The notes under the pieces were generated by a model, which saw nothing but the letters and a program-made list of their open reading frames with translations, searched no databases and was not told the DNA's origin. From positions 1,811 to 65,810 of the forward strand of contig JAMWFC010000108.1 of NCBI GenBank assembly GCA_027475525.1: DNA of 64,000 bases, read 5' to 3'. Positions within the stretch are counted from its first letter, which is position 1. Each line of letters starts with the position of its first letter. The position numbers and the translations under genes are program-made. Source of the stretch: Macrolepiota albuminosa. Its lineage: Eukaryota; Basidiomycota; Agaricomycetes; Agaricales; Agaricaceae. Below, piece after piece: positions 15,041 to 64,000 of the stretch.

Positions 15041-16954
15041 AGGGGTCTCTGGGCCCCCCTCCCCATCCTCCCCCCCACTGGACCTCAACGGCCAACCCTG
15101 GGGCTCCTCCCCCTCCCACTCCCCCAAAACGTACTGTTGTGACGCCTCCTCCATCAGCTGGTCCCAGGTCAGGAGCGGCTTGTCCTTGTCCAGGACCCTC
15201 TCAAACTAGGTCCCTGGTGCTGGGACGTTCCTCCGCCAGTGCGCCAAGACTAATCTCCCCAACAGGTCCAGCCCACACTCCACCCTGGGGGTTGCCAGTT
15301 CAGGCTGCTGACCCTCCTGCAGGGAGGCTAACGCCACAGCTGCCCCATCCAGGAGCAGGCGGTGCTCCCGGGCCCAACCTGGAAAATCAGTGCAGGACAC
15401 AGGAAAGCAGCTCGAACTACTAACTCAAAGCTGCCATCCAGGCGACGACCAAGTCCTGCAAGCTCTGAGGGGCCGGCTCCGGATGGCCCGCAGCACGTCC
15501 CGCTCAGCCTCCAATGCCCCCCATGTGACCCAAACCTCCTGCAGCTTCCAGACTACCACCCCCCGGTCCTCCTCCACCCACCGACGAGCCGCCACCTCCT
15601 GCCTCACCGCCTCCTCGCTCCGAGCCAGGGTCGTCCGAACCCCCCGCAATTGCTCGGCCATGACCTGGTGGTGGTCAGCCAGCTCCCCCCTCTCCCGCTC
15701 AGCCCAGTCCACATGCTCCTGCAGCGCCGCCATGTCAATGCTCAGCGGCCACCCCAACAAGGGGAGAACGCCATCGGGGACAGACGCAGGGGAGGGGTCG
15801 GGGAGGAGGCCTCCCGAGAAAGTTGCGGCTGCTTGGAAGGCCCAGGAGAAGGACTGAGCAACGCTTGCAGCCGCTTGGAAGGCCCGGGGAAAGGACTGGG
15901 CGACGCCCGCCGCTTTCCCTTGTCGACACGACCCCCTCCCCCCCGCTCGCCCCAGCCCGGGTTTCCCGGCGCGTGATCAAGACCATGGGCCGGCCCTGAC
16001 TACCCACCCCCGCCACCCCCTTGTTGGGGCCCCGTCCCCCCCAGAACCCCCTGGCCCTGACTACCCACCCCCGCTACCCCCCTCACCCAAGACCCCCTCG
16101 TTGGGGCCCCGTCCCCCCCAGAACCCCTGGCGCTCCCATCGGCAGCTCAACTACCCAGTCCCTCTCCTCCACCTCCATCCTGCGTGTCACCCCCCCCCAA
16201 CGGCCACCCCTGCTCCCGTGCCATACAGCGCACCCTCTATAACACTGAAATGGAACAGTGCTCGTGGTTAAGGTGACATGCCTTGCATACTGACGAGTCC
16301 CTCCAGGACGACGGGCTGGGGGCCTCAAAAAGACATGGCACCAGCCAACGAGCACAGTGCACACACTGGGTCGGCATTAGCGGCGACCACAAGGTACAAC
16401 GTCACTTACCGGCCCATTGCTGACGCACCACGCATGGGTGGGCAACCCCCAGGGCCTCTCAAGGGCCTGCTCAAACAACGATTGCGACACGACTGCCCAT
16501 GGGATACGCAGGTCCTCCAGAACTGTCAATATAGTACTGGGGGCTATCCCGAACCGACGAAAACGTGGGCAACCAGACGAGGGCGAGGTGAGGAAGGAGG
16601 GCGGGGGGGCCAGACAGTCATCCACACGACAGTGGGCGTGGGATGACTAGAACCCACCTAAGGAACCGACCCAGGAACCAATGCCAGGAGACTGGCCAGG
16701 TCTGCCTCAGGCACAGTCTCTGGCAGGCAACTGGGTCCCGCCTCCGGGGCAGGTGCGTTTTGTTGTTCTAAAACAGAGGGGTTGATTGTGCCAAGCAAGA
16801 ACACATGAATGCACCTACGTTGCTGGAAGAGCGCCGCGATGCGCTCCTGATCCAGGCGGCGCCGATACTGGGCATCCCGGGCCTCCCACATGACAAGAGG
16901 TGCGACTTTGTCAGTAGGCGGGGGTGTCGGGGAATGCGTCAGCGTATGCGACAT
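15040..16954 (-). pseudogene. Antisense Zn2Cys6-like accessory gene, decayed copy
   Basis: Read right to left, the gene starts at ATG 16954 (MSHTLTHSPTPPP), about 130 bp inside the 3' LTR. The first exon ends in a Gln-rich stretch. After introns, the zinc region at 16365-16255 keeps all six cysteines in the spacing CX2CX6CX15CX2CX6C although other codons are damaged. The acceptor CCAG lies directly before the first cysteine. Downstream are a charged coiled-coil region (ALQEHVDWAERERGEL, about 15750-15430) and a Trp/Leu-rich end. It is homologous to the intact-looking gene at 51328-53104 and lies in the same place and orientation relative to pol. Stops and frame breaks make this copy a pseudogene. 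The 3' end is approximate. The likely role, inferred only, is DNA binding. Confidence 0.7.
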
Positions 16955-23077: not shown

Positions 23078-23847
23078 CCCTTGGCGACAGCCGTTGCCGA
23101 GGTTGATGAACTCGACGATGCGCTTCCTGGTTTCTCTGTTACCATTGACTCTCCCGACACCGATGAACCTCTTGCTGACCCCATCGCTAACGCCACCTCT
23201 GTGGACCCAGTAGAGACCTATCTTAGGTCGGTAGACCATGGAGAGGACCCCGCCATCCTTACCGTCGCTCAAGAATCGCACGCTATCCGCTCGGTAGCGC
23301 TAACCGTAGACAACAAGCACGAAGTAGAGGCAATCGTGGATAGCGGGTCTCAGATTATTTCTATGGCAGCAGAAGTCGCTAACGATCTAGGCCTCATTTA
23401 CGACCCTACGGTTATACTAAAGGGTCTCAGATTATTTCTATGGCAGCAGAAGTCGCTAACGATCTAGGCCTCATTTACGACCCTACGGTTATACTAAACA
23501 TGCAGAGTGCTAACGGCACAGTAGACCGATCTCTAGGACTCGCCAAGAATGTGCCGTGCACCCTTGGCGACATCACGTTCTATCTTCAAATACACATCTT
23601 ACGATCACCGGCATACGACTTACTACTCGGCAGACCCTTCGACGTCTTGGCGCGATCAGTCGTCAAGACAGTTACCGACGAGGAAACGACCCTCACAATT
23701 AGCGACCCAAATTCCGGAATCCGACGAACGGTGCCAACGTTCCCTAGGGGACAACGAAAAGGCGCCCGCGCTAAGCCCCCGGAGTTTACCGACCAACACG
23801 CCAACGAGCCTCCACACCGGTGTTTTCACAGACCATCGAGGAGGTGA
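23078..23847 (+). CDS. Retropepsin region of element B
   Basis: The frame continues from Gag after its TGA and carries an aspartic protease with the catalytic triplet in VDSGSQIIS and the downstream DLLLGRPF box typical of retropepsins. It is artificially interrupted by a 77-bp exact duplication (23345-23498); without the second copy the reading frame is continuous from 23078 to 23847. Pol begins in the -1 frame; the two frames overlap between 23775 and 23847. I see no canonical slippery heptamer there, so a -1 frameshift, an intron or independent initiation are all possible. The protein would cut Gag and Pol. Confidence 0.8.
23345..23498. repeat. 77-bp duplication breaking the protease frame
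   Basis: Exact copies at 23345-23421 and 23422-23498. Removing one copy restores the same open frame that element D has at this place, which is strong evidence that the duplication is not biological. Confidence 0.88.
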
Positions 23848-26800
23848 TTGGCGACGATCACGGAGATGTAGCGCTAACGCTGGAATATGACCATTCAACT
23901 GGTCTTGTAAATATTATATCTACCGCTTGTCTTGACAATGAAGTTTTGCTTTCCTCTACCGTTACCGACGCTGAGCTTTCTCAGAAAAACCCAGATATTA
24001 CCGACTCAGCTCTAGCGTACTTATACCTTACCGCCTCTGAATCGTTTCAAAATATTGCGTCTACCGATACGTATCTCACTACCCTTCCCGGAGCCTCGTC
24101 TCCTGCCGTTCTTGGACTTGCCGCACCCCAGGCTACAGTTCCCCTTTCCACATCTGTGTATAACCAAGCTAACGCTCCCAAAAGGAAAGGGGTACAAGTT
24201 AAAAAGAAATATAAGCCAGTTGCGCTTAAAACAAAGCCCATCGCTACGCACTCTCCCGAGACTTTTAGAATCGAGCGCCAGATCATTGGCGACCCTCTTG
24301 CCGACATGCCGGCCTTATCACCGAATCCGCCACCCTTTCAGCCCACAGGACGTTTTACCGAGGAACGCCAGCAGCAGTTCGCCAAGGAGCACGACACAGG
24401 ATTTTTGACCAAAGATGAGTTAAACGTCCTTACCGATCTTGTCGCTAAGCAAGACAAAGCCTTCGCCTGGGAGGACTCAGAACGCGGCAGCCTCCGCACA
24501 GATTTCTTCCCGCCTGTCGTAATCCCGACCATCCCTCACGTACCGTGGACTGAGCACAACCGACCGTTACCGCCTGGGATCGAAGCCGAGGTCTGCCAAA
24601 TCATTAGGACCAAGATTAAGGCTGGCGTCTACGAACCCTCCAATAGTTCTTACCGCTCCCGCTGGTTCTGTGTCCTCAAAAAGAACGGCAATCTACGCAT
24701 AGTTCACAGTCTTGAGCCGCTGAATAGAGTAACCATACGACACTCTGGCGTACCGCCTTTCCCTGACCACTTTGCCGAGTCCTTTGCCGGGCGCATTTGT
24801 GGCGCCACCCTTGATCTCTACGTTGGCTACGATGAACGCTTAATCCACCCTTCTTCCCGCGACCTCACTACGTTTCAAACTCCGTTTGGCGCACTGCGCC
24901 TAGTCACCTTACCGATGGGCTGGACAAACTCAGTCCCCATATTCCATGACAACATCACTTTCATCCTCCAACCCGAGATACCGCATAACGTCCTTAGCTT
25001 CATCGACGACGTTGGCGTCAAAGGCCCCAAAGACTGGCGACTCGTAAACGGCTTACCGGCGACCCATCCCGACAACTCCAACATTCGCTTAGCGCTATGG
25101 GAGTTCTTCCAGCTGCTCAATCGAGTCCTCCAACGAATGAAGTATAGCGGTGGTACGTTTAGCGGTCACAAACTCCTCCTTTGCGCGCCAAGGTTCAAAA
25201 TACTCGGTCACATCTGCACTCCCGACGGTTGCGTTCCCGACGAGTCTCGCTTAGCACTCCTAGAGCGATGGGGTCCTTGCCGCGACTTATCTGAAGTTCG
25301 CGCCTTTCTCGGTACCGTTGGCGTTCTTAGGATATTCGTCAAAAACTTTGCCCATCGCGCACACGCCCTTAACCGACTCACCCGCGCCAACGAGCCCTTT
25401 GAATTTGGGCCAGACCAGGTTACTGCACAACGAGACTTAGTAAAAGCTCTACAAGACGCCAAACCCCTAGTCCCCATCGATTATACCTCTGCCGACCCTG
25501 TGATCTTGGCGGTGGACACCTCGTACATTGCCGTTGGCTACTTCCTGTGCCAATGCCTTAGCGACAATCGGAAACAGCGACGCTACAACCGCTTTGGGTC
25601 TATCACGCTAAACGACAGAGAGTCTCGCTACAGCCAGCCCAAGCTAGAGCTCTATGGACTCTTCAAAGCCTTCCGGTCACTAAAGATGTATTTGATTGGC
25701 GTGCGCAACCTTATTGTTGAAGTCGACGCTAGGTACATCAAAGGCATGCTGCAGAATCCCGATATCCAGCCATCCGCTAGCATGAACCGGTGGGTAGTCG
25801 CCATCCTCATGTTTCACTTTGAGTTGGTACACGTCAAGAGCTCTTTCCACGGACCAGATGGACTCTCTAGGCGACCACGACAGCCTGGCGACCCGGCAGT
25901 GGACCCACAGGCTGATAGCGATTTCGAGGACTGGATCAACCGACTACATGGTTTCGTGCACCTCATTCAACAGCCAATCCCCCTACTACGACGGCAACAG
26001 CCTACCAGCATCCTTCTACATCCCATTGTCCCTTACCGCCCCGAGACCTTTAGCGCACCCCTCACATTCTACACGGCAAGCATTTTCAGTCAAAATTCGC
26101 CTCCAGTAAAAGTCGTACAGGAACCCCAGTCGCTAAGAGAAGACAGCAGAAACCTGACCTATGATGCCGTTCCCCGATCCGCCAAGGCAAAGGCGGAAGA
26201 CAGTCGCCTGTTAGTAGTCGAGCAATGGATACAAGACCTTAAGCGACCCCCAGACCTTACCGACGAACAATACGCTACTTTTATCCGATATGCTACCCAT
26301 TTCTTCTTTACCGACAACAGACTTTGGCGACGAAATCGAGATGGCGCTCACAAGCTGATCATCAAGCCAGAAGGTCGCTTACGAGTCTTGCGCGCTATGC
26401 ATGACGAGCTAGGACATAGAGGTCTGTACGCTACCCGAGCTTCTCTGTTAGAACGATTCTGGTGGCCACACGCTAGTGCCGACATCGCCTGGTACATCAG
26501 GACTTGCCACCTCTGCCAAATCCAACAGACACGCCAAGTGCTCATACCGCCAACCGTTGCAACGCCAGCTCCCCTCTTCAGCAAAATCTACGTCGATACC
26601 ATGCACATGCCCAAATCTGGTTGCTATAAGTACATCATTCAAGGTCGTTGTTCGCTAATCCACTGGCCTGAGTTTCGCATGCTTCAAAGAGAAAATACCG
26701 AGGCAGTCGCCAAGTGGCTATTTGAAGACGTCATCTGCCGGTGGGGAGCGCTAAGAGAAATCGTCACAGATAACGGTGCGCCCATTATCAAAGCGCTAAC

Positions 26801-27569
26801 ATACCTCGCCAAGAAATACAACATTCACCACATTCGAGTATCTGGCTACAACAAGCGCGCCAATGGCCTGGTAGAGAGACCCCACTTTGACGTTCGGCAA
26901 GCACTCTTCAAGGCAGTCGATGGCAACGAGTCTCGTTGGAGCGAAGCGACCTATTCAGTGTTCTGGTCGGAAAGAGTTACTATTCGTAAGCGCATGGGTT
27001 GTTCTCCCTATTACGCGGCTACTGGCACCCATCCGTTACTCCCTGCCGACATTATAGAAGCGACCTATCTTCAGCCAGCACCCAACAGCATCTTAGCGAC
27101 TACCGACCTTATCGCCAGACGAGCTATTGATCTCCAGCGAAGGAAAGAAGATTTAGAGCGACTCCACGAGGTAGTCTTTAGCGCACGTCGCCAAGCAGCA
27201 TTACGATTCGAGACCGAGCATAGCGCTACCATCAAAGATTACAACTTCCCGAGGGGCGCGCTAGTGCTTATGCGCAACTCCAAAATCGAAACTTCATACA
27301 ACAAGAAAATGCGCCCTCGCTATCTAGGACCTTTGGTAGTTATCTCTCGTAACCGTGGTGGCGCTTACGTGCTCTGTGAATTAGATGGTTCAGTACTGCA
27401 TCGACCGGTTGCCGCTTTTCCCCTATTGCCATACCTCGCCAGAGAACACATTGACTTGCCGCTTGAAGCGCTAGATATCGACACCGCCAAGCTTAGGGAA
27501 CTTGAAGAAACAGAATTACTGGACGATGATGACTTACCGACTCTAGTTGAAGAAGAAGAACCAGATTAG
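23820..27569 (+). CDS. pol: Pol polyprotein of element B (RT, RNase H, integrase)
   Basis: Open for 1249 codons. After an N-terminal linker comes a gypsy-type reverse transcriptase with the catalytic box FIDD at about residue 394 (24999-25010), in place of the commoner YLDD. RNase H follows, with acidic residues in AVDTS, LELYGLF and VEVDARY. The integrase has an HDELGH plus CHLC zinc region. Its catalytic acids are at about residues 926, 984 and 1019, giving an exact D-D35-E spacing. The C-terminus has a GPLVVI stretch but no chromodomain. It copies the RNA and inserts the DNA. The start given is the beginning of the open frame (GTG) and the real junction with the protease is unknown. This copy looks capable of function. 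Confidence 0.92.
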   Translation: MFSQTIEEVIGDDHGDVALTLEYDHSTGLVNIISTACLDNEVLLSSTVTDAELSQKNPDITDSALAYLYLTASESFQNIASTDTYLTTLPGASSPAVLGLAAPQATVPLSTSVYNQANAPKRKGVQVKKKYKPVALKTKPIATHSPETFRIERQIIGDPLADMPALSPNPPPFQPTGRFTEERQQQFAKEHDTGFLTKDELNVLTDLVAKQDKAFAWEDSERGSLRTDFFPPVVIPTIPHVPWTEHNRPLPPGIEAEVCQIIRTKIKAGVYEPSNSSYRSRWFCVLKKNGNLRIVHSLEPLNRVTIRHSGVPPFPDHFAESFAGRICGATLDLYVGYDERLIHPSSRDLTTFQTPFGALRLVTLPMGWTNSVPIFHDNITFILQPEIPHNVLSFIDDVGVKGPKDWRLVNGLPATHPDNSNIRLALWEFFQLLNRVLQRMKYSGGTFSGHKLLLCAPRFKILGHICTPDGCVPDESRLALLERWGPCRDLSEVRAFLGTVGVLRIFVKNFAHRAHALNRLTRANEPFEFGPDQVTAQRDLVKALQDAKPLVPIDYTSADPVILAVDTSYIAVGYFLCQCLSDNRKQRRYNRFGSITLNDRESRYSQPKLELYGLFKAFRSLKMYLIGVRNLIVEVDARYIKGMLQNPDIQPSASMNRWVVAILMFHFELVHVKSSFHGPDGLSRRPRQPGDPAVDPQADSDFEDWINRLHGFVHLIQQPIPLLRRQQPTSILLHPIVPYRPETFSAPLTFYTASIFSQNSPPVKVVQEPQSLREDSRNLTYDAVPRSAKAKAEDSRLLVVEQWIQDLKRPPDLTDEQYATFIRYATHFFFTDNRLWRRNRDGAHKLIIKPEGRLRVLRAMHDELGHRGLYATRASLLERFWWPHASADIAWYIRTCHLCQIQQTRQVLIPPTVATPAPLFSKIYVDTMHMPKSGCYKYIIQGRCSLIHWPEFRMLQRENTEAVAKWLFEDVICRWGALREIVTDNGAPIIKALTYLAKKYNIHHIRVSGYNKRANGLVERPHFDVRQALFKAVDGNESRWSEATYSVFWSERVTIRKRMGCSPYYAATGTHPLLPADIIEATYLQPAPNSILATTDLIARRAIDLQRRKEDLERLHEVVFSARRQAALRFETEHSATIKDYNFPRGALVLMRNSKIETSYNKKMRPRYLGPLVVISRNRGGAYVLCELDGSVLHRPVAAFPLLPYLAREHIDLPLEALDIDTAKLRELEETELLDDDDLPTLVEEEEPD

Positions 27570-28002: not shown

Positions 28003-31000
28003 TCAATCACTGTCATCATCCATCGGCAAGGAATCGTCCGACACAGGCAGAGAGGAGTCGCAAAGGGGGAGGAGGTCGCCCGGCAAGATGTTATTGGCGG
28101 TTTGCCAATCCATAGCGGCTTGGCAATCGGCCTGGTAGTCGCGAAGAACGCGGAGGCTGCGGCCCAGGTTGGAGTAGCGCAGTTGTAGCACTATAAGCTG
28201 CCCCCGGACTCGTTCCCGTTCTCGCTCCATTACCGCCTCCATTGTTGCCGCCCTCCTCGAGAACCTCTCCAACATGTCCCGCGGGTTGAGCGCCACCACC
28301 GGGTATACGAGGTCTTGCCCCAGCCAGTTGAAAGCGTCGCCAGTGACCGTTGGCTGCGGCTGGGGGGTCCACGCGGGATTGACCCTGGCAATCACGGGGC
28401 GCCTAGCCTCCAGCCCGGCAACGTCCTCGGGGTCTGAAACCTCCCAAGGGGCAGCGTTGCCGTAGGGAGGCAGCCACCGCCACTCAGGCTCTTCCCGGGT
28501 AACTCCTGCCCCCTCCTCTCCTTCCACTACCTCCCTTACCAATGCCTCTTCTTCGCCCCCTTCCCGCTGAGTCGCCAACGTTTCGTCGGCCGCCAGATCC
28601 TCATCGCCTCCCGCTACCACTACCGCCTCTTCTGCACCCATGTCGTCCTCCCCGTCCGCGTCCTTGTCACCAGCTGTGGCCTCAGGCTCTTCCCTTGGTG
28701 GCAGATCCATTACCGCGTCATCCTCGTCGGGAAGCGGCAGAGAAGCCACTCGCAGGTGGATGGGGGAGAGCAATTTGCTAGGCCCGGCTTCGGTATCCCT
28801 TGGCGGGAGGCGGCTAGCGGCAAGCGCCTTTTCGAGATCCTCCATCTCAACGTCCTCGGGGGTGGGGGGAGGAGATTCCACTACCTGTGTGCGCTTAGCC
28901 TTGCCCTTCCCCTTTGCAGGTGAAGGGACTTGTCGTTTTGAAGGGACCACAGTCCCTTGGCGCTCCCCGGCGCCACGAGTGCCGACCGTTTCGTTATCGT
29001 CCCCTTGACGCGTCGGCAGCGCCAGGGAACTCTTGCTGATTGAAGCCGCGTCGCCAGCGGCCTGCCTCTTCTTCTCCCCCTCCACGAACTCCCGAGCCCT
29101 CTTGACAAGAACGGCACGCTTGAAGGTGCGCTCCACTACCGCGCTCGCGACTCTTAGCGCCGTCCAGAGTGCAAGCCCTCTTCAGCGTCCCGCACTGGTA
29201 GCAAGGCTGGCCACCAGTGGGGTACCAACACCCCTCTGGGTCGTTGTCGGCCCAGCACTTGTCACACTATAAGAATGTTAGCATGAGCGTTAAGGAAAGT
29301 CAAACTACTTACCGCTCCTTGGGAGTCCTTGAACTCCCGTCTTGCCGCTGGGCTTGCCGTCTTCTTATCCTTCATCTCCGGCAAGACCACTCCCGCTTCC
29401 ATTCCCTCATCCAAAACCGCCTCTTTGCGTCGCGCCACCAGCAAGCCCTTCAGCTCTGCGTCGCTAAATGAGGTTTGCGTTGGCGCCTGCCAACTAGGCG
29501 GTTAGCAGAGAAAGTACCTTGGCGCGATAAACTCACCGTGTAACGAGGGGCGGCAGCCTTACGAGACTGAGAGTGGGATAAGCAGAAGTCGCCAGCGGTA
29601 AGAACCCTCAAACTTACCTTCTTTTTCAAAGTCTTGCCAGGCTTGACCGGAGAGCCCGATTTGCTTGCCGGCAGTGCTGGGCTCTGGGCACTACCGGCGC
29701 GGGAATCCTTCACATCAGACATCTGCCTCCTGGCAACTGGCGACTTCTCGCTAGCAACCAGGGACTCGCCAACGACCTCTCGCTCCTCCAACGCCTTGGT
29801 CCTCTCCTTGGCGTCACGGGAGGCCTCTTCCAGCACACTCTCGCGAATTGCCGCCATCTCTGCATCGACCTGCAGGTTGGCGAGAGGCGCCAACACCTCT
29901 TGCTTGCTGTGAGGAGATAGATCAGACCACAGCTAAGTTAGAAAGTACAGTTAGAGATACTCACTCAGGCGCTGGCGCGCTTACCGTCATTGGCAAGGTG
30001 TCAGGTTCCGCTGAATCGGGGGCTTTCCGGGAAAGCGACGCCCTTACGATGCGGACTTGATCTACGGATACTCGGGGGTCTGGAACTCCGGGGCTAGGAC
30101 TCCGGGGTTCAAGACGAGGACAGGGTAATCCCGGGAAAGGGGACTAGAGTCCGGGGGTTTTGGATGAAAGTGGCTGGGAGTTAGAGGGGGTCGAGTCGTG
30201 AACCGGAGGTTCTAAGACGAGACCAAGTTAGTAACTTAAGAGTCGCGAAGTGCGTACCAAACTTATAGCACGCGAATACCAAGGCGTGCCAGTCGAAGCG
30301 TACCAAACGAGGCGTACCAGTCAAACAAGAGGGCACGCAATAACCAATGTAATATCAAGACTACCGAATACAACAAGGGACTACGCTATAAGTACTACGG
30401 GATCGGGTCTCGGGGTTCCGGGATGTCTGGGATGGGTTCCGGGGGTTATTGAGTAGCGGCAGGGGCTGTATACCGGGATCGCGCGTGTGGGGCGCGCGAT
30501 CAATTGGCGCGGATGGAGCCGTGATGCGTGATGCGTGATGGCCGGCACGAGTCGCGTGATCTGATCGTTGATCGGGGCTGGTGATGGCTGATGGCGGTCC
30601 TTGATGCGCGTGATGGCGGTGTCGGCGGTCGTGATGGCGGGGCGTGTCCTGGGGGTCGGAGGGAGGGTCCCGGAGGGTGTTCCGGGGGTGTCCCGGGGTG
30701 GGCCCGGAGGGGAGGGGTCGTGACACTGGGGGTCGGAGGGAGGGTCCCGGAGGGTGTTCCGGGGGTGTCCCGGGGTGGGCCCGGAGGGGAGGGGTCGTGA
30801 CACAAGGCGCCAGAGAGGATGTCCTCCAGTTCGTCCTCAATGGTTGGAACGGGAGGAGGCGCCTAGGGACCAATCAGTTGGCGACACGGCAAAGACTTGA
30901 AAGCACTTACAAAACGAGAAAATGGAGCTAACCACTCTGCGCCACGATTATCCACATAGCGGGCCCGGCACCACTCCCGCACCTCAATCTCACGATCCCA

Positions 31001-31195
31001 CCCAACGCCAAGTACTCGCACCTCATACCACCGCTCCAATAATTTCATCACGCCAACGATCAGATTTGCAGGCGCTTCCGCGCCAACACCCTCGATCCGC
31101 CGGATAAAGCGGTTCGCCTTGTCAATGTAGGCGGAGGCAGCGTCTTGAGCCTCGCGGGACGGGACTGGAGGCGGAGTTGGAATTCGGAAAGACAT
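28003..31195 (-). CDS. Antisense Zn2Cys6-like accessory gene of element B
   Basis: A spliced gene on the strand opposite pol, starting at ATG 31195 (MSFRIPTPPPVPSREA), 170 bp inside the 3' LTR, and ending at 28003. Exons by eye: 31195 to about 30915; a short exon near 30862-30803, now split by the family I LTR at 29999-30802 (its remainder ends near 29985); 29907 to about 29620 (Glu/Lys-rich coil); a small exon near 29570; about 29467-29310; and a last exon from 29266. The last exon opens with six cysteines, CX2CX8CX8CX2CX6C (29266-29171), and its intron ends directly before the first. Then come basic KGKGKAKR, a long acidic stretch and a C-terminal coil (MERERERVRGQ). One frame change lies near 29140. 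This resembles a Gal4-type zinc cluster regulator, but the function is inference. Confidence 0.68.
29171..29266 (-). other. Zn2Cys6-like cysteine cluster (element B)
   Basis: Six cysteines spaced CX2CX8CX8CX2CX6C, starting immediately after a TATAG intron acceptor. The last half (CX2CX6C) is identical in spacing to the fungal binuclear zinc cluster. The same intron position occurs in the family I antisense gene. Confidence 0.7.
29999..30802 (-). mobile_element. Family I solo LTR inside the antisense gene of B
   Basis: Plus-strand reading TGTCAGGTTCC to GTCGTGACA, flanked on both sides by CAAGG (29994-29998 and 30803-30807). The LTR is on the minus strand and splits an exon of the accessory gene. 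It contains a 77-bp exact duplication from 30649. Its promoter and predicted start sequence are conserved near 30350. Confidence 0.92.
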
Positions 31196-41922: not shown

Positions 41923-42439
41923 TGTAAGAACAACCTCTAGAGGCTGTGGCTCAGTCATACAGCTGGTAGAGAGAGATCCAAGTGTATTAGAATATATACT
42001 GACAATATTATGATTGCTACTCACCTGGCAAAGGGAGATCCAAAGAGAACAAGTTTAGGGATTCCCTATGCCAGGTTGGATGCTTCTGGAGCCTCTGAAG
42101 CATGGGAAACAACTGTACAGTACAACAAAACCTTAAAAACTCAAAAATTGCCTACACAAACAATTGCACAAATAAGGAGCAAACTCTGGCAAACTCTGGC
42201 TTATATAAGTGGTCTGGAAGCGATGCTGAGGGCCCACACTTGTCTGAATAGTAGCTAAAGAACCAGAGCACCTCAAGGGCTGGTAGTAGTACTAACAGAT
42301 AGTGTTGAAAGAATAGAAACAGTAAAATGAAATAATGTCAGAAGAAATAAGAGAATGAATGAAGGAAGAGTGAAGAGATAAGGAGTGAGAAAAGAAAGAT
42401 AAAGAGTGAGAAAAGGAAGAAATGAGGAGTCCCCTGATA
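41923..42439 (-). mobile_element. Family III solo LTR
   Basis: Plus-strand reading TGTAAGAAC to CCTGATA. Flanks GAAAG and GAAAT are a near-perfect 5-bp target duplication. Compared with the copies at 45363 and 46252, several C residues have become T, including in the terminal CA, so this is an older copy. Confidence 0.8.
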
Positions 42440-44930: not shown

Positions 44931-45362
44931 AATTGGAGCCCACCGTGAGGGACCTCTAGGGCAGAATTCCACCAGAAACCTGTCTCCAGTGTAGATGCCA
45001 TCTGCTAGAGCAGTCAGCAGAAGACATAGCTCCTTCCCATCCATCAACTCCACAACCACCTGGTGCCTTACCGGGTCTCTCTCTTGCACAGGAACTACAG
45101 AATGCCACTGTAGACGCATTTCCTGATCTCTTCCCACATTCCCTTGATTATAGCGCCGACGACTCCTTAGTGTCACCATTTGCCGTACCACAACCAGTTA
45201 CCCCCATTACTCCTCTAACACCGCTTTCTCAACTCGTTATTTCCCTTACCCTGTCGCAATTACCTAGAACTCCTTCACCACCTCCACTAACCGAACTCGC
45301 CAACACAGTCGCTATGGAACAACAAGTCCAGCGCATGCCACCACGTAACCACTTCTTGGCAC

Positions 45363-45880
45363 TGTAAGGGCGACCTCTAGAGGCTGTGGCTCAGTCACAC
45401 AGCTGGCAGAGGGAGATCCAAAGTGTATTAGAATATATACTGACAATATCAAGGTAGCTACTCACCTGGCAGAGGGAGATCCAAAGAGAACAAGTCTGGG
45501 GATTCCCTATGCCAGGTTGGACGCTTCTGGGGCCTCTGAAGCGTGGGAAACAACTGTACAGTACAACAAAACCTTAAAAACTCGAAAATTGACTAACCAA
45601 ACAAGTGTGCAAACAAGGGAGGAAAACTCCGGACTTTAGAAGTCAGAAAGGCAAACTCCGGCTTATCTAAGCAGCCTGGAGCGGTGCTGAAGGGCCCACA
45701 CTTGTCTGAGTGATAGCTAAAGAACCAGAGCACCTCAAAGGTTGAGAATAGTACCAACAGATAGTGTTGAAGAAGTAGTAACAGCCAAATGAGAGAATGG
45801 TAGAAGAAATAAGGAAGTGAATGAAAGGAGAGTGAAGAAATAAGGAGTGAAAGAAGAAAGGAATGAGGGGTCCCCTGACA
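45363..45880 (-). mobile_element. Family III solo LTR in gag of D
   Basis: TGTAAGGGC to CCCTGACA on the plus strand, with the 5-bp target duplication GGCAC at 45358-45362 and 45881-45885. The uninterrupted target is seen in element B as CTCGGCACCG. Confidence 0.95.
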
Positions 45881-46251
45881 GGCACCAAAATGAGACAAGT
45901 CCAAGCCACAGGAGCTCTCCCAGTATTTTAAGGAATTAGAGTATCTATTCAGGGATTGTGGAATTACCAACCACACGCAGATGAAGGAATACGCAGCAAG
46001 GTACATGTCTTATGACACAGCAGAGACATGGACAGGTCTTGCTGAGTTTGCCACCTTTGTTCCTGCTGCACCACCAGTTCCAGCCCAAGGTGCTTCGTAT
46101 GAGGACTGGAAGATGGCAGTAATCCAGTTGTACCCTGGCGCAGAGGAGGCTACCCGATACACAGTAAACAAGTTGCAGAAATTAGTTCAGGAATCATTCG
46201 ACAACGGTACTTCCTTGCTTGGCGTGTTCTCTGCGTATTACCGCGAGTTCC

Positions 46252-46827
46252 TGTAAGGGCGACCTCTAGAGGCTGTGGCTCAGTCACACAGCTGGCAGAG
46301 GGAGATCCAAAGTGTATTAGAATATATACTGACAATATCAAGGTAGCTACTCACCTGGCAGAGGGAGATCCAAAGAGAACAAGTCTAGGGATTCCCTATG
46401 CCAGGTTGGACGCTTCTGGGGCCTCTGAAGCGTGGGAAACAACTGTACAGTACAACAAAACCTTAAAAACTCGAAAATTGCCTACACAAACACTTGTACA
46501 AATAAGGGGCAAACTCTGACTGTACAGTACAACAAAACCTTAAAAACTCGAAAATTGCCTACACAAACACTTGCACAAATAAGGGGCAAACTCTGGCAAA
46601 CTCTGGCTTATATAAGTGGTCTGGAAGCGGTGCTGAGTGGGCCCATACTTGTCTGAATGGTGGCTAAAGAACCAGAACATCTCAAGGGCTGAGAGTGGTA
46701 CTAACAGATAGTGTTGAAAGAATAGAAACAGTAAAATGAAATAATGTCAGAAGAAGTAAAAGAATGAATGGAAGGAGAGTGAAGAGATAAGGAGTGAGAA
46801 AAGGAAGAAATGAGGAGTCCCCTGACA
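46252..46827 (-). mobile_element. Second family III solo LTR in gag of D
   Basis: Same ends as the copy at 45363, flanked by GTTCC at 46247-46251 and 46828-46832; element B has the empty site GAGTTCCAG. It is longer because of a 77-bp duplication starting at 46442. Confidence 0.95.
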
Positions 46828-48012
46828 GTTCCAGAAAATTGCTAGATGAAGCTCTATATTAACGAGGAATGTTGCCTATTCCAACAGGGAATCCTGACTT
46901 CATTGTGGACTCGTATTGCTCGTCGCCTAGAAATTGTCTAGCAGGCCCATCATCCAGAGAAGCCATATAAAGTTGCCGATGTCTTTGAAGCCGATAAATA
47001 GGTTCTCAAGGGAACGGACACTGGCGTTGGTATACAACGCACTAGGATGAGCCCACCCCCTGAGCGAACCATTGGTATCATTCCCATCCTGCCTCCTGCT
47101 ACCGACTTCATTAAGAAAGAGGAGCTCAATGCTGCTATTACCACCACTGTCGCTTCCGCCATGATGTGTATTGAAACCATGATCACCACCAACCTCACTG
47201 CTAGCCGACCCGCTAACGTACCCGCATCTGGCCCTTGCCACTTCTGTGGGGAAATTGGCCATACTATGACCAGAGGACGCTGCGTGACTTTAGAGAATTA
47301 TATTCGGCAAGGAAGAATTTGAAGGGCTATCAACGGCAAGATAGTCCTAACCACTGGCGCCACCATTCCCAACTACCCAGACAAGAAGTCTTTCCAGGAG
47401 TGAGTAGATGAATGGCATAGGCGCAACCCAGGACAAATCGTCACCAGCACGCTTTCCGGCAATGCCAACCCCGACCCTGATCAAGTGACTCAACAGCAAA
47501 TGATTCACGAGGTCTTACACTTTGACAGCGTTGGCAACCACCCTACTTTCTCGTGGGAAGAGCGAATCACTAAGCTACAGCAGGAATTGGATTCACTGAA
47601 GAATCAGGTTTTTGATGGGGTTGAAGTTAAGCAGCCTAAACAGCCCCTTAAAGGATATAAGCCAATGCCTCCCACTAGCAAGTTACCGACTTCTGCTCCT
47701 GCCGCACCACCTGCTACCACTCCAGAACCATTGTCATCTGCTACCACTCCTGAACCGCCTTTACCGCCTCTCCATCCCTACTCAGGGATTCCCGACCGAT
47801 ATCATGCTCCTGCACAACGAAACTTTGCCACTCCCAAGAAGCGTCCTGAAGGTGGTTACCAACCTACCACGCCAATTTTTGACATAGAGAAATCAAACCA
47901 CGTCTTTAACCGCATCATGAAAACCGCCGTCACTTTATTAGTTGAGGAACTATGTAGTATTGCCCCAGACATCCGCAACCAGGTCAAGACGGCAGTCACT
48001 CCCTGACAACCC

Positions 48013-50401: not shown

Positions 50402-51122
50402 TGTCAGGTTCCGCTGAGTCGGGGGCTTTCCGGGAAAGCAACGCCCTTACGATGCGGACTTGACCTACGAATACTCGGGTGTCTGGAACTCCGGGGCTAG
50501 GACTCCGGGATTCAAGACGAGGACAGGGGTAATCCCGGGAGAGGGGACTAGAGTCCGGGAGTTTTGGGTTGGGGGTGGCTGAGAGTTAGAGGGGGTCGAG
50601 TCGTGAACCAGAGGTTCTAAGACGAGACCAAGTTAGTAAATCAAGAGTCGCAAAGTGCGTACCAAAACTTAGAGCACGTGAATACTTAGGCGTGCCAGTC
50701 GAAGCGTACCAATCAAGGCGTACCAGTCAAGCAAAGGGCACGCAATATCCAAGTAAGCAAAGTATGTAATATCAAGACTACCGAATACAACAGGGAGCTA
50801 CACTATAAGTACTACGGGGCCAGGTCTCGGGGTTCCGGGATGTCTGGGATGGGTTCCGGGGGTCATTGAGTAGCGGCAGGGGCTGTATACCGGGATCGCG
50901 CGTGTGGGGCGCGCGATCAATTGGCGCGGATGGAGCCGTGATGCGTGATGCGTGATGGCCGGCACGAGTCGCGTGATCTGATTGTTGATCGGGGCTGGTG
51001 ACGGCTGATGGCGGTCCTTGATGCGCGTGATGGCGGGGCGTGTCCTGTGGGGTCGGAGGGAGGGTCCCGGAGGGTGTTCCGGGGGTGTCCCGGGGTGGGC
51101 CTGGATGGGAGGGGTCGTGACA
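50402..51122 (-). mobile_element. 3' LTR of element C
   Basis: Left LTR on the plus-strand map. It differs from the other LTR by a few CG/TG changes and two small indels in the repetitive GGGTGTCCCGG part. The predicted start sequence is at 50767-50779. Confidence 0.93.
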
Positions 51123-51135
51123 TCACCCCCCCCTC
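51123..51135 (-). promoter_or_regulatory. Polypurine tract of element C
   Basis: On the minus strand a GAGGGGGGGGTGA run directly precedes the 3' LTR, identical in layout to element A. Confidence 0.8.
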
Positions 51136-51140
51136 AGCAC

Positions 51141-51294
51141 CGAGACCCTCCGAGGCGCGCGTAGCCGGTGGTTCGGACCGGGGGTCAACTGTGGGATCCG
51201 GCACCTGACCTGCCACCCGAGACCCTCCGAGGCGCGCGTAGCCGGTGGTTCGGACCGGGGGTCAACTGTGGGATCCGGCACCTGACCTGCCACG
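51141..51294. repeat. 77-bp duplication beside the 3' LTR of C
   Basis: Exact copies start at 51141 and 51218, in the 5' leader of the antisense gene. Confidence 0.85.
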
Positions 51295-51327: not shown

Positions 51328-53104
51328 ATGTTGCGTACGCCAACGCATTCCCCGACGCCCCCGCAAACAAACAAGGTCGTGCCCCTCATGGCATGGGAAG
51401 CCCGGGACGCACGTTACCGGGCTCAACTTGACCGGGAGCGCGTGGCGGCGCTCGCCGAGCAACGTGAGTACTCCCGCGCCGCCCCTTTACCTCACTGACC
51501 TTTCCTTTTCAGAACAACGCAACATTCCGGCCCCGGAGGCGGGTCCCAGCCGACTCCCGGAATCTGTTCCCGGGGCGGGTTCCAGTTGTCCTGCGCCGAC
51601 CTTCACGCGCATGACTGTTCGTCCTCCCCATTCGCAGCCCCCTCCCCATCCTAGATTGCCTGCCCCCCGCTTTCGTCGTTCCGGGATGGAGATAGAGACC
51701 GTGTCGGAGGTCCCGGAGAGTCGACGTGTCGCGTGGGCGGATGCGACACAGGATCTGTTTGTGGAGGCCCTGGAGAGGCTCCGGGGTCTGCCTACCCACG
51801 CCTGGTGCGTGAACAACGGACCGGTGAGTCGTTGCCCTACCTCTGATCTCTCTTGCTGACTCCGGTGTAGTGCTTGCACTGTGCTCGCCGAGGCGTACTT
51901 TGCGAGTTCGAAGTCCTGGGCCCCTCGTCCCGCCGGGACACGGCCGTGTGTGAGGCTTGCCGCCTCAACCACGAACGTTGTTCCGTGTCGGCGCTGTGGA
52001 GGGCGCGCGCCGGGACACGGCCGTGTGTGAGGCTTGCCGCCTCAACCACGAACGTTGTTCCGTGTCGGCGCTGTGGAGGGCGCGCTGTGTTGCCTGGGAG
52101 CAGGGATGGCCGCTGGGGGAGGTTACCTGGAGGATGGGGGTAGAGGAGCGGGACTGGGTGGCGGAGCCTGTGGGGGAGGTGGTGGAGCCGGTAGGGGGGG
52201 TGCCCGCAGCGCCCGCGGAGGCGTCCAGCGGGGGGTCGGGGGGTCGGGGGGTCGTCCGGGTGGGGGGCCGGGGCCGGCCTGTGGTGCTGATCACGTGCCA
52301 GGCTCCTCGGTCCGGTACCCGGGGGGAGGGGGGGCGCCTGGACAAGGGGAAGCGGCGGGCGTCGCCCAGTCCCTCCCCGGGCCCCTCCAAGAGGGCGCGC
52401 CTGCCCATGCAGACCCCGTCCCCGGCCTCCCCAGCGCGCGTTTCCCCAGCAGTATTCTCCCCGCTGTCCGGGCGTCCCTTGAGCGCCGAGGTGAGGAAGC
52501 TGCAGGCGCGTTTGGAGCAGGCAGGCCGGGAGAGGGAGGAACACGAGGAGGGGGCGAGGGAGGAGGCAGCGCTCCGGCGGAGGTTGGAGGAGGATCGCGA
52601 GGCGGCCCTCCGGGAGTTGGGGGAGGCGAGGGTGGCACGGGGGAAGGCCGAGGCCCGGCTGGACGCCATGGGGGCCAGGCTGGGGCAGGGGGTTGGGCTC
52701 CCTGGGGTTGGTCGAGGTTCTGCGCCGGGATGTGGTGATCGGGCGTATGGCCTCTCTTAGTGAGTGCTCCTTTTCTCGGGGTCGGGTCGGTACTGACATT
52801 CCCAGGTTGGGCTCGGGAGCATCGCCAGCTCCTGGACGGAGTGGCCGCGGCGCTCGCCTCCCTGCAAGAGGGGCTCCAATCGGAGGCGGGGAACCCCGGG
52901 GTGGAGCGGGGTCTGGATCTGTTGGGGAGGCTGGTGACCGCGCACCGCCGGAGGAACGTCCCGGCCCCGGGATCGTGGTTCGAGCGGGTTCTGGACGAGG
53001 GGGAGCCACTCCCGTCCTGGGACCAACTGGCCGAGGAGGTGTGGCGGGGACACGGTCCGGAGGGGGTGGGGGAAGAGTTCCGGGGCTGGCCGAGGGGAGG
53101 GTGA
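51328..53104 (+). CDS. Antisense Zn2Cys6-like accessory gene of element C
   Basis: A spliced gene opposite to pol. Exons: 51328-51463, 51513-51823, 51871-52759 and 52806-53104, with GTGAGT donors and AG acceptors. It starts MLRTPTHSPTPP 205 bp inside the 3' LTR. Exon 3 opens with the cysteine cluster CX2CX6CX15CX2CX6C, then a Gly/Pro-rich region, a basic KGKRRASPSPSPGPSKRAR stretch that looks like a nuclear localisation signal, and a charged coiled coil (EEDREAALRELGEARVARGK). Exon 4 gives WAREHRQLLDG and ends at TGA 53102-53104. The 77-bp duplication at 51931-52084 shifts the frame, and removing it makes exon 3 continuous. A further frame change near 52685 in a G run may be real or an error. 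Zn2Cys6 clusters bind DNA; a role in regulating the element or host is inference. Confidence 0.72.
51871..51981 (+). other. Zn2Cys6-like cysteine cluster (element C)
   Basis: Cysteines spaced CX2CX6CX15CX2CX6C. The two halves match the fungal binuclear zinc cluster exactly, with a longer middle loop than the classical 5-12 residues. The intron acceptor GGTGTAG abuts the first Cys codon. All six cysteines are also kept in the decayed copy in element A. Confidence 0.75.
51931..52084. repeat. 77-bp duplication in the antisense gene
   Basis: Exact copies at 51931-52007 and 52008-52084, partly duplicating the cysteine cluster. Frame bookkeeping shows that one copy must be dropped for a continuous exon. 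Confidence 0.88.
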
Positions 53105-55214
53105 GGGTAGTTCGGGGCCCCAGCTCTAGGGGCCCCCGTTTTCTTGTTGCTGTCCCGTAGCTGTAGGTATAGTGTACTATATATAGAAAATGTATATACT
53201 TGGCTGTCCTGGGTCAGTAGGAGTAAGGGGGCGAAAGAAACCGAAAGAAACTGGAAAGAACATCTTGCCCAGATGCCAGGACACTACTATGAAAAGGTAC
53301 TAAAAAGGAGTAAGGTCTAGAAAGGGAAAGGGTAGAAAGTATACATGGGAGTTGAATCCCTACTGGGCCCAGAGGCGGGGGTTACGCCCACTACTGCCGT
53401 CTGTGAGTCCTGCGCCCGGGAAGGTCGTTTCCCGGGTGCCGTTGTTGGAAGTCCCGGAGTTTGTCGAGGGCACCTTCGAAGTTTCGGCGTGGTTCCCAAG
53501 TATCGTCTTCCGGGCCATATCCCTTCCACCGTATGAGGAAGTGGGGTCGTCCCCGAATGTTCTGGGAGTCGAGGATGTCTTCAACTTCGTAGTGGTACTC
53601 GTCCTCGACCTCGACCAGGGGAGGGGGCTTGGGGCGCCGTTCGGGAAATGGGTCTGGGGGGTGTCGTTCCAGGAGGCGGACGTGGAATACTGGGTGCAGA
53701 CCTTTTAGTCCTGGGGGGAGCTCGATCTTGTAGGCGTGGGATGAGACCTTCTTCAATATTTTGAATGGGCCGAGACGCTTGTGATCGAGTTTTGGGGAGG
53801 GCCGGCGGGTGCGGAGGTGTCGTCGATCTAACCATACCTTTGTCCCGGGGGCCCAGTCGGGGGTGTCTTCCCGTTTCCGGTCGGCGTGTTTCACGTAGGC
53901 CCGGTTCGCGATGTTGATCTCTTCCCGGAGAAACTCGTGAAGGGATTGGAGATCCCGGGCGACCTCGTGGGCGGCGTGCGACGGGATGTCCCGGAGCGAG
54001 AGTGTCAGTCGAGGGTGGTATCCCTTGTTGGCAAAGAAGGGGGATACCCCGGTGGCAGAGTGCGGCGTGTTGTTGTAGGTGAACTCAGCCAGGGGGAGCT
54101 CAGTGCGCCAGTCGTCCTGCAAGTAGTTGACGTACAGTCGGAGGTACTGCTCGAGAGACTGGTTGACCCTTTCGGTTTGGCCGTCGGTTTCGGGGTGGTA
54201 GGCGGTAGAGAGGTTAGTCTTTACTTCAAGTGCCTTACACAGGGAAGTCCAAAACTTGGACACGAAGAGAGGGCCACGGTCGGAGACGATGTTGTCTGGG
54301 AGTCCATGTTTGGCGAAGACGTGCTCGAGGAACAGTCGGGCGAAGTCCGGGGCGGTGTCTGTGGTGTGACAGGGTAGGAAGATGCCCTGTTTGGTTAGCC
54401 TGCACACAATGACGAGAATGGCATCGAACCCTTCAGATTCCGGGAGTTCGACGATGTGGTCCAGGGATATGGAGGACCAGGGGCGTCGTCCGACTGGCAG
54501 GGGTTTCAGGAGTCCGTATGGTCGGTGTCGGGGGACCTTGGCCCGGAGGCAGGGTTCACATGATCGAATGTAGCGGGTCACGTCCTTCTTCAACCCTGGC
54601 CAAAAGTAAGTCCGGGAGATCAGCTGGAGGGTCTTACGTATCCCAGGGTGTCCCCGGAGTTTATGATTGTGGTGTTGACGGAGGACGTCGTAGCGGAGTT
54701 GGGCGTGATCCGGGACGTAGATGCGGCCGTCCCGGAGGAGGAGTTTTTCGTCGGGGGACAAGGAGAAGGCGGGGTCCCAGTTGGTTCCGTCGGAAGAGTT
54801 TCGGGGGTCGTGATTGGTGAAGTACTTGTCTCGGGGAGCACAGCGGATCTGGTTCAGGGTTTCTTCGTCGTTTAAGATCAGTACAGCATTCAGATGTTCG
54901 GGAGGGATCACCACACGATGATTGAATGCATTGCGTTCCGCCTCAAACGACTTCTTGGGATAGACGTCTGGACGATGGGTGAGGGCGTCGGGTTTGGCTC
55001 TGAGTCGTCTCGGGCGGTACTGGATCGTGAAGTCGTATTCCGAGAGGACCTTGGACCATCGGGCCTGCCGTCGACTAAGCTGTTTGGTCGTGGTGAAGTA
55101 CTGCAGGTTGTTGTGATCCGAGTAGACCTGAATCCGGTGTCGGGCTCCCTCGAGGTAGGCTCGCCATTGCTTGAAGGCTTCGACGATGGCGAGGAGCTCC
55201 TTGTCGTAGATGTC

Positions 55215-55368
55215 GTAGTTGAGCTCGGCGTTGATCATGGACCGGGTGTAGAAGGCAACTGGCCGGGGCTCCCCTCCATCAGGTTCCATCTGTAGTTGAG
55301 CTCGGCGTTGATCATGGACCGGGTGTAGAAGGCAACTGGCCGGGGCTCCCCTCCATCAGGTTCCATCT
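55215..55368. repeat. 77-bp duplication in RNase H of C
   Basis: Exact copies at 55215-55291 and 55292-55368 break the frame between two long open stretches of Pol. Confidence 0.88.
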
Positions 55369-61220: not shown

Positions 61221-62017
61221 ATGTCAGGTTCCGCTGAGTCGGGGGCTTTCCGGGAAAGCAACGCCCTTACGATGCGGACTTGACCTATGAATACTCGGGT
61301 GTCTGGAACTCCGGGGCTAGGACTCCGGGGTTCAAGATGAGGACAGGGGTAATCCTGGGAGAGGGGACTAGAGTCCGGGAGTTTTGGGTTGGGGGTGGCT
61401 GAGAGTTAGAGGGGGTCGGACAGGGGTAATCCCGGGAGAGGGGACTAGAGTCCGGGAGTTTTGGGTTGGGGGTGGCTGAGAGTTAGAGGGGGTCGAGTCG
61501 TGAACCAGAGGTTCTAAGACGAGACCAAGTTAGTAAATCAAGAGTCGCAAAGTGCGTACCAAAACTTAGAGCACGCGAATACTTAGGCATGCCAGTCGAA
61601 GCGTACCAATCAAGGCGTACCAGTCAAGCAAAGGGCACGCAATATCCAAGTAAGCAAAGTATGTAATATCAAGACTACCGAATACAACAGGGAGCTACAC
61701 TATAAGTACTACGGGGCCAGGTCTCGGGGTTCCGGGATGTCTGGGATGGGTTCCGGGGGTCATTGAGTAGCGGCAGGGGCTGTATACCGGGATCGCGCGT
61801 GTGGGGCGCGCGATCAATTGGCGCGGATGGAGCCGTGATGCGTGATGCGTGATGGCCGGCACGAGTCGCGTGATCTGATCGTTGATCGGGGCTGGTGACG
61901 GCTGATGGCGGTCCTTGATGCGCGTGATGGCGGTGTCAGCGGTCGTGATGGTGGGGCGTGTCCTGTGGGGTCGGAGGGAGGGTCCCGGGGTGGGCCCGGA
62001 GGGGAGGGGTCGTGACA
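61221..62017 (-). mobile_element. 5' LTR of element C
   Basis: The right-hand LTR is the upstream LTR of this minus-strand element. It is longer than its partner because of a 77-bp duplication (one mismatch) from 61341. Confidence 0.93.
61664..61707 (-). promoter_or_regulatory. Predicted promoter and transcript start of element C
   Basis: On the minus strand ACTTATAGTGTAG is followed about 28 nt after TATA by AGTCTTGATATTA. The same pair occurs in the family I LTRs at 8883, 17084, 29999 and 50402, so both box and start sequence are conserved. Confidence 0.65.
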
Positions 62018-64000
62018 GTCAGTGCCTTAGCGACAATCGGAAACAGCAACGCTACAACCGCTTTGGGTCCATCACGCTAAACAACCGGGAATCTCGCTAC
62101 AGTCAGCCCAAGCTAGAGCTCTATGGACTCTTCAAAGCCTTCCGGTCGCTAAAGATGTATTTGATTGGCGTGCGAAATCTTATTGTTGAAGTCGACGCTA
62201 GGTACATCAAAGGCATGCTGCAGAATCCCGATATCCAGCCATCCGCTAGTATGAACTGGTGGGTAGTCACTATCCTCATGTTTCACTTTGAGTTGGTACA
62301 TGTCAAGAGCTCTTTCCATGGACCAGATGGACTCTCTAGGCAACCACGGCAGCCTGGCGACCCGGCAGTGGATCCACAGGCAGATAGCAATTTCGAGGAC
62401 TGGATCGACCAATTACATGGTTTTGTGCACCTCATACAACAGCCTATCCCCTTATTACGACGGCAACAGCCTACCAGTATCCTTTTACATCCCATTGTCC
62501 CTTACCGCCCTGAAACCTTTAGCGCACCTCTCACATTCTACATAGCAAGCATTCTTGAACAAGACTTGCCTCCAGTAAAAGTCGTACAAGAACCCCATCC
62601 GCTAAGAGAAGACAGCAGAAACCTGACCTACAACGCCGTTCCCCAATCTGCCAAGGCAAAGGCAGAAGACAGTCATCTATTAATAGTTGAACGATGGATA
62701 CAAGACCTTAAGCAACCCGCAGACCTTACCGACGAACAATACACGACCTTTATCCAATATGCCACCCACTTCTTCTTTACCGACAACCGCCTTTGGAGAC
62801 GAAATTGTGATGGCGCTCACAAGCTAATCATCAAGCCAGAAAGTCGCTTATGAGTCCTGCGCGCCATGCATGATGAACTAGGACATAGAGGTTTGTATGC
62901 TACCTGAGCCTCTTTGTTAGAACAATTCTGGTGGCCACACGTTAGTGCCGGCATCGCCTGGTACATTAGGACTTGCCACTTTTGTCAAGTTCAACAGACA
63001 CGCCAAGTGCTTATCCCGCCAACCGTTGCAACACCAGCTCCCCTCTTCAGCAAAATTTATGTTGATACCATGCATATGCCCAAATCTGGTCACTACAAGT
63101 ACATCATCATTCAAGGTCATTGCTTGCTAATCCACTGGCCTGAATTTCGAATGCTTCAGAGAGAAAATATGGAGGCGGTTGTCAAGTGGCTATTTGAGGA
63201 CGTCATTTGCTGTTGGGGAGCACTAAGAGAAATCGTCACGGATAACGGTGTGCCAATTATCAAAGCGCTAACATATCTCGCCAAGAAATACAACATTCAT
63301 CACATTCGAGTATCTGGCTACAACAAGCGTGCCAATGGCCTGGTAGAGAGACCCCACTTTGACGTTCGGCAAGCGCTCTTCAAGGCAGTCGATGGCGACG
63401 GGTCTCGTTGGAGTGAGGCAACATATTCAGTATTTTGGTCAGAAAGAGTTACCATTCATAAGTGCATGGGTTGTTCTCCCTATTACACGGCTACTGGCAC
63501 CCACCCTTTACTTCCTGCCGACATTACAGAAGCAACCTACCTTCAGCCAGCACCTAACAGTATCTTAGCAACTACTGATCTGATCACCAGACAAGCCATT
63601 GATCTACAGCGAAGGAAGGAAGATTTAGAGCGACTCCACGAGGTAGTCTTTAGCGCCCGTCGCCAAGCAGCCCTGCGATTCGAAACCGAGCATAGCGCTA
63701 CTATCAAGGATTACAACTTCCCGAGAGGAGCACTAGTACTTATGCGCAACTCCAAAATTGAAACCTCATACAATAAGAAAATGCGCCCACGCTATTTGGG
63801 ACCTTTGGTAGTTATCTCTCGTAACCGTGGAGGCGCTTACATGCTCTGTGAATTAGATGGTTCAGTACTGCATCGACCTGTTGCCACCTTTCGCTTAGTG
63901 CCATACCTCGCTAGAGAACACATTGACTTGCCGCTGGAAGTGCTAGATATCAACACCACTAAACTTAGGGAACTTGAAGAAACTGACTTATTGGATGATG
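62018..64000 (+). pseudogene. pol: Pol of element D, right part (RNase H end and integrase)
   Basis: Resumes at the duplicated GTCAG with the RNase H of element D and continues collinear with element B through the integrase (zinc region, VDTMHMP, TDNG, LVERPH) to near the C-terminus at the window edge. Stops at 62851 and near 62906 are CGA in B. The zinc region and catalytic acids are still readable. Confidence 0.88.

Follow-up and report, generated by a model that had tools for sequence, protein, structure and literature searches.

Why should Gypsy retrotransposons of two different lineages each carry a spliced six-cysteine gene on the strand opposite to their own genes, in the interval from pol to the 3' LTR, and what could the product of such a gene be doing? 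The window considered here, meaning the whole 64-kb stretch of DNA that was analysed, belongs to a genome of 100 Mb in 129 contigs and contains three elements of this kind. Elements A and C, with 89% identity between A and the pol fragment of C over 1.9 kb, represent family I, a chromovirus-type Gypsy, and element B represents family II, a different Gypsy lineage (Table 1). A sequence-only reading of the window had described the antisense gene as spliced, located between pol and the 3' LTR and starting about 130–205 bp inside the LTR, and the coordinates of all three elements bear out its antisense position and its introns. In C, the start codon lies about 202 bp from the LTR edge at 51125, and the stop codon is about 286 bp from the stop of the opposite-strand pol; in B, the gene runs from 31195 to 28003 on the minus strand, with about 433 bp between it and the pol end. 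The same reading had noted a six-cysteine cluster ending in CX2CX6C with an intron acceptor at the first Cys codon in all three elements, as well as a spacing common to A and C, and these observations also hold. The cluster of C reads CLHCARRGVLC-X15-CEACRLNHERC; that of A has the same spacing, CX2CX6CX15CX2CX6C, with all six cysteines present, the acceptor directly before them and a stop soon after. Element B has the spacing CX2CX8CX8CX2CX6C, and here too the acceptor directly precedes the first Cys codon.

Table 1. Coordinates of the antisense genes and accompanying features of elements A, B and C in the window.
Feature	Position	Strand	Remark
Element C antisense gene, exon 1	51328..51463	+	ATG at 51328; GT donor follows in 34/39 rows
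Element C intron 1 (GTGAGT...TTTTCAG)	51464..51512	+	Acceptor AG in 39/39 rows
Element C exon 2, proline-rich, then VAWADATQDLFVEALERL...	51513..51823	+	
Element C intron 2 (phase 0), acceptor immediately before the first Cys codon	51824..51870	+	
Element C exon 3, encoding the Cys cluster, a basic stretch resembling an NLS and a long-helix (coiled-coil-like) region	51871..52759	+	Long helix seen in relative P0027
Element C six-cysteine cluster CX2CX6CX15CX2CX6C	51871..51981	+	Cys retention 36-38 of 37-38 rows per site
Element C exon 3, exact 77-base tandem duplication, probable assembly artefact	51931..52084 (51931-52007 / 52008-52084)	+	
Element C intron 3 (GTGAGT...CCCAG)	52760..52805	+	GT 36/37, AG 37/37 rows keeping intron
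Element C exon 4, encoding the C-terminal region (WAREHRQLLDG...), with the stop codon at 53104	52806..53104	+	
Element C LTR, pol-distal (3') side	50402..51125	.	Partner LTR 61222-62021
Element C pol, C-terminal part (Pfam matches: RNase H, integrase, SH3_Tf2-1, Chromo)	53391..55355	-	Convergent with antisense gene
Element A six-cysteine cluster, decayed copy	16255..16365	-	Start codon 16954
First exon of the element B antisense gene	30911..31195	-	
Element B antisense gene, last exon, opens with Cys cluster (29266-29171); frame disrupted	28003..29266	-	
Solo family-I-type LTR within exon 2 of element B gene	29998..30802	.	
Element B pol, 1264-codon open frame, no Chromo match (Pfam), convergent with gene	23775..27569	+	

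None of the three copies in the window is intact. The gene of B is damaged by the solo LTR in exon 2, a case of one element family disrupting the accessory gene of the other, and by a short length difference in the last exon. The frame of C is broken by the 77-base duplication in exon 3 and is out of frame again further on. A repeat of about 500 bp with a SINE-like look occurs as several insertions in or near the Gypsy elements (10092–10597, 41921–42419, 45356–45881 and 46251–46828).

The duplication in C is one of many. All 30 exact tandem duplications with a period of 30–200 in the window have a period of 77 and two copies (for example, at 878, 14815, 30649, 51140, 51931 and 60588), and so do 47 of the 47 found at loci L017–L075, some of which overlap or are duplicates. 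They probably arose in assembly, from a k=77 graph whose overlaps were left untrimmed on joining, and the +77 frameshifts should not be taken for decay. The gene of C carries one of them in the leader (51140–51293) in addition to that in exon 3. The loci L061–L065, with 0–2 base differences over 2.9 kb and unrelated outer flanks beginning at different points, suggest recent insertions; repeat filling by the assembler could contribute, and near-identical or mosaic copies need caution.

The structure of the family I gene was derived from an alignment of C with 38 further copies (39 rows), at fixed splice sites. The gene has three introns with conserved splice sites and frames. For intron 1, the donor is GT in 34 of the 39 rows and AT in the other five, and the acceptor is AG in all of them; intron 2 has GT in 34 and GC in four of 38 rows, followed in every one of these by an AG lying directly before the first Cys codon; intron 3 has GT in 36 and GC in one of 37 rows, all 37 with AG. 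Intron lengths are 49–52, 45–47 and 44–46 nt, respectively, excluding rows with the 77-base repeat or another insertion (L029, L031; L022, L050) and rows without the intron (L036; L053, L054). Joined at the fixed sites, the reading meets an early stop in 35 of the 39 rows, in some of them through 77-base repeats. An intact reading is present in copy L075 (1591–3459, minus strand), with introns of 52, 45 and 48 nt and a 1366-codon open pol frame alongside. In this copy, introns 2 and 3 are stop-free multiples of three, leaving the unspliced reading open over 623 codons, and intron retention would yield a longer protein. Antisense genes similar to the predicted protein P0026 form a wide group with many genomic copies, mostly with open frames of 400–700 codons, and some of them fall into groups of seven or eight that score identically.

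The family II gene consists of six exons and five introns of 46–59 nt, all of them GT–AG in each of the 20 copies fetched, which are the top 20 of 40 scored among 574 candidates for one query, with the window copy excluded, and not a random sample. The full frame from ATG to stop, 713–726 codons long, is retained in 18 of the 20, and the two broken copies have one stop each, in exon 5 and in the last exon. Exon length varies in the last exon only, by multiples of three, and introns 1, 2 and 3 vary by 1–3 bases.

The antisense gene is tied to its element in place and orientation. A genome search with it gave at least 86 match rows (40 scored of 651 candidates), and a search for family II gave at least 41 (40 scored of 574). 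All 12 co-located pairs (less than 4 kb apart) of a family I-like gene and an SH3_Tf2-1 domain are convergent, with 550–825 bp between the matches; this comparison was made between 91 gene rows, one per place, of at least 138 (91 scored of 1503 candidates) and 150 SH3_Tf2-1 matches of 2208 candidates. In family II, the gene and pol are convergent in seven of seven co-located pairs, one of which is the window, with a gap of 437–461 bp, as judged from 40 of the 41 gene rows and 37 pol rows listed; beyond the window, all six pol frames are open over 1264 codons. The values of 12/12 and 7/7 are counts of coincidence among the matches listed, not rates.

Protein relatives of family II number 24, all from Termitomyces, and those of family I number 173 at E ≤ 0.001, the named ones among the 120 listed being likewise all from Termitomyces (J132, Mn162, T112). 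These searches scored the 7993–7995 candidates sharing most words, and other fungi may hold relatives; no relatives were found among viral contigs. The host is probably a Termitomyces or closely related to that genus (Agaricales, Lyophyllaceae). The family I-like relative P0027 keeps the spacing CX2CX6CX15CX2CX6C with many differing residues in between, and in several further predicted relatives the Cys cluster is incomplete. A BLASTP match between P0029 and the antisense pol of L075 (E 0.003) weakly hints that Termitomyces gene models may run on into the antisense pol.

The proposal of an element-encoded gene was upheld: its splice sites are preserved in 38 further copies of family I and in 20 of family II, and the dN/dS ratios between copies, with medians of 0.101 in family II and 0.233 in family I, show purifying selection. 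The family II value (NG86) is based on 78 pairs of 13 distinct intact copies and has a range of 0.066–0.50, the top value belonging to the near-identical pair L066/L067. The other five frames, calculated for 12 copies, have median ratios of 1.6–2.8, except for reverse frame -1 with 0.21, and each of them contains at least six stops in every one of these copies; reverse frame -1, with 9–13 stops in every copy, was set aside as a coding candidate. The family I value was obtained against the intact L075 for 39 rows, two of which are duplicates, and the shifted frames gave 1.13–2.09. Pairwise comparison in family I resulted in a median of 0.264 over 629 pairs, leaving out rows L036, L038, L042 and L054 and one pair with no more than 30 differences, and close pairs reached 0.69–0.89. 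Variants present in at least four copies are distributed over codon positions 1, 2 and 3 as 159, 164 and 353, and singletons as 202, 170 and 197. Such a pattern is expected if selection acts on the gene as long as its lineage transposes and is relaxed in dead copies, and selection is visible mainly in the older differences because close pairs behave as expected of dead copies. Each Cys site of the family I cluster is kept in 36–38 of 37–38 rows, two rows having lost one cysteine apiece, and the commonest residue has a mean share of 0.88 at the other 31 positions of the cluster. The survival of all six cysteines in the decayed copy A is explained by the same pattern of selection. Altogether, the dN/dS ratios, the frame-preserving indels and the conserved splice sites argue for a real, selected accessory gene, and, judging from these sequence comparisons, the antisense gene is almost certainly protein-coding.

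The identity of the encoded domain is another matter. The sequence-only reading had taken the cluster for Zn2Cys6-like, and comparison with the Pfam family Zn_clus (PF00172), which has a cut-off of 21 bits, did not sustain this. The likeness consists of the six cysteines and of the CX2CX6C halves of family I, which score weakly: natural segments of family I and family I-like genes reached 10.1–19.9 bits in four of five cases, with no match in the fifth, and short pieces of C and L020 reached 17.9 and 18.1 bits, both under the cut-off. At E ≤ 0.1, Zn_clus matched six of 31 family I-like proteins (best E 0.0026) and, in family II, none of 23 relatives; it was also absent from both family II segments. 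No Pfam family reached its cut-off for the antisense gene where bit scores were shown, the best E-values of relatives being the 0.0026 mentioned and 0.079. The latter is a weak match to DUF3716 in one of the 23 family II proteins, which did not recur with the cluster segments and was discarded.

Zn2Cys6 domains have the spacing CX2CX6CX5-12CX2CX6-8C and basic residues between the second and third cysteines. In family I, basic residues are present there (ARRGVL or TRRGEQ), and the loop of 15 residues is too long; in family II, CX2CX8CX8CX2CX6C differs in its CX8 first half, and the spacer WADNDPEG is acidic and contains no basic residues. Moreover, the cluster halves match Zn_clus in swapped order, the second half aligning with the start of the profile and the first half, as seen in one composite and one natural row, with its end. 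With scores under the cut-off and an aberrant spacing, Zn2Cys6 membership is not supported, and the cluster is treated here as a six-cysteine unit that probably binds metal.

AlphaFold2 models have a mean pLDDT of 49 for P0027 and 50 for the family II protein P0004, the Cys regions, where a two-zinc fold would lie, being under 50 in both. P0027 has a confident long helix at 271–369, after the cluster and the basic stretch. P0004 has three, the first (125–193) preceding the cluster, the second (393–420) following closely behind it and the third (599–661) at the C-terminal end. Basic stretches of the gene products are of the KGKRRASPSP...SKRPR or AKGKGKAKRAR type. If 'coiled coil' is understood as a confident long helix in a predicted model, the earlier statement that C and B have an NLS and coiled-coil segments in comparable order is only roughly correct as to the order: the number and placement of the helices differ. 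A sequence search of solved structures found no credible relative; PUT3 appeared with E 3.4–6 in one search using two composite rows, was absent from the repeat search and was rejected.

Taking these features into account, the explanation that we favour, and consider to be just on the likely side, is that each Gypsy family has its own accessory gene, convergent with pol, for a nuclear protein acting in trans, most likely as a tuner of element transcription. Purifying selection keeps the gene during the spread of the element, and dead copies then decay. It would be transcribed from the LTR side and spliced like a host gene. As follows from the retrotransposition cycle, the introns survive: the genomic RNA carries them in antisense orientation, in which they cannot be spliced out before reverse transcription. 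The product may be nuclear, probably zinc-binding, and self-associating through its long helices; with its Cys cluster and basic stretch it may bind nucleic acid, acting in trans on copies of the element. A nuclear, metal-binding product appears reasonably likely, with the nuclear location predicted from the basic stretches only. That it tunes the transcription of its own element would be the most likely role by analogy with Grande gene23, for which such a role was proposed, and with deltaretrovirus antisense proteins; as a claim in itself, regulation of the element's own expression is put forward tentatively.

Alternatively, instead of tuning transcription, the protein could bind element DNA or chromatin and counter host methylation or RNA interference. 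Anti-silencing proteins exist in DNA transposons, and a protein that combines a Cys cluster with basic stretches and long helices would fit such a role. In addition, the five family I rows without GT at intron 1 read AT after C, corresponding to a CG-to-CA change, which may hint at methylation-driven decay. However, no similarity to a known anti-silencing protein was detected in the Pfam scans, and we regard this function as unlikely. The same applies to a role in replication, such as packaging, nucleic-acid chaperoning, RNA export or integration targeting: proteins with Cys clusters or of the basic long-helix type are found in these roles as well, and the gene is selected together with the element, but a separate antisense gene that is not fused to gag-pol would leave its dosage uncoupled from the particles. 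A transcription-tuning nuclear protein remains our preferred reading for the genes of both families.

Whether these genes have one origin or two is a separate question. The suggestion that the gene was acquired once and is common to both families found no support in sequence homology: hhalign of whole family I and family II proteins gave 1.4%, and profile comparison of the cluster exons gave 0.4% with typed rows (two composites) and 0.3% with natural family I rows. The sole sequence-level trait common to both families is a phase-0 intron that immediately precedes the first Cys codon. For genes of 560–720 codons with few introns, a chance coincidence of this position is unlikely, at about 0.2% by a rough estimate and not a computed test, and therefore a very old shared exon is possible. 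Capture of one host regulator gene, a true Zn2Cys6 factor, and its exchange between Gypsy families would explain this intron, the same position and orientation, the CX2CX6C at the end of the cluster and the presence of basic and helical regions in both genes; yet, with no detectable homology and with half-spacings that differ between the families, such a history seems improbable. A bolder reading, which we consider less likely than not, is that within one mushroom genus two Gypsy lineages, unrelated to each other, each gained on their own the same kind of antisense regulator with several introns, six cysteines and long helices. In this reading, it is the antisense orientation that permits an intron-rich gene and opens the way to spliced, separately promoted regulation, e.g., self-limitation or anti-silencing, in elements that otherwise lose introns at each round of transposition.

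It is very improbable that the antisense frame is accidental, or that antisense RNA (as double-stranded RNA) is the product and the protein is irrelevant, since, although non-coding antisense transcripts are described in other elements (PMC7264820) and long ORFs arise on both strands of the window from its GC richness, dN/dS is about 0.10 and 0.23, indels preserve the frame, and splice sites and cysteines are kept.

Antisense accessory genes are already known in plant Gypsy elements and in the fungal element Boty. The plant aORFs between pol and the 3' LTR include gene23 of maize Grande and those of rice RIRE2 and of Silene Retand, with TRP28, and, as described in PMC7264820 and PMC11963269, they resemble the mushroom genes in place, orientation and conservation across copies and were proposed to be nuclear or DNA-binding regulators. 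Of the features defining aORF-3R, a position between pol and the 3' LTR, antisense orientation to gag-pol and conservation in many copies are found in both mushroom genes, and transcription from an antisense promoter of their own is predicted. Unlike the plant aORFs, the mushroom genes have three or five conserved introns and a six-cysteine cluster, belong to another host kingdom and show no TRP28 (PF04195) among the Pfam matches at E ≤ 0.1 for 31 family I-like and 23 family II proteins; the word 'intron' is absent from the main text of both papers. Boty/BcGypsy1 of Botrytis cinerea has an additional antisense gene, brtn (Zhao et al. 2011, cited in PMC7264820 and PMC8365987), and thus is likewise a fungal Gypsy element with an antisense gene, as far as the cited title tells. 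A search of titles and abstract beginnings found no report of this gene in Termitomyces and none of a Gypsy element with a spliced Cys-cluster gene in antisense orientation.

HBZ of HTLV-1, a deltaretrovirus, is spliced and offers an analogy of layout only, in a different host and with no bZIP among the Pfam matches listed for the 31 and 23 relatives. It lies antisense to gag-pol and has an antisense promoter in the 3' LTR, a nuclear product and a role in the virus cycle (PMC7264820 and PMC11963269). The antisense accessory genes of LTR retrotransposons are described there (PMC7264820) as having no known function. The two examples reported here, from relatives of cultivated mushrooms, have copies that are intact, are clearly under purifying selection and show a domain order that can be defined. 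Should a regulatory role of the protein be borne out, the purpose of antisense accessory genes becomes testable, and these genes would be a retrotransposon counterpart of the retroviral antisense regulators.
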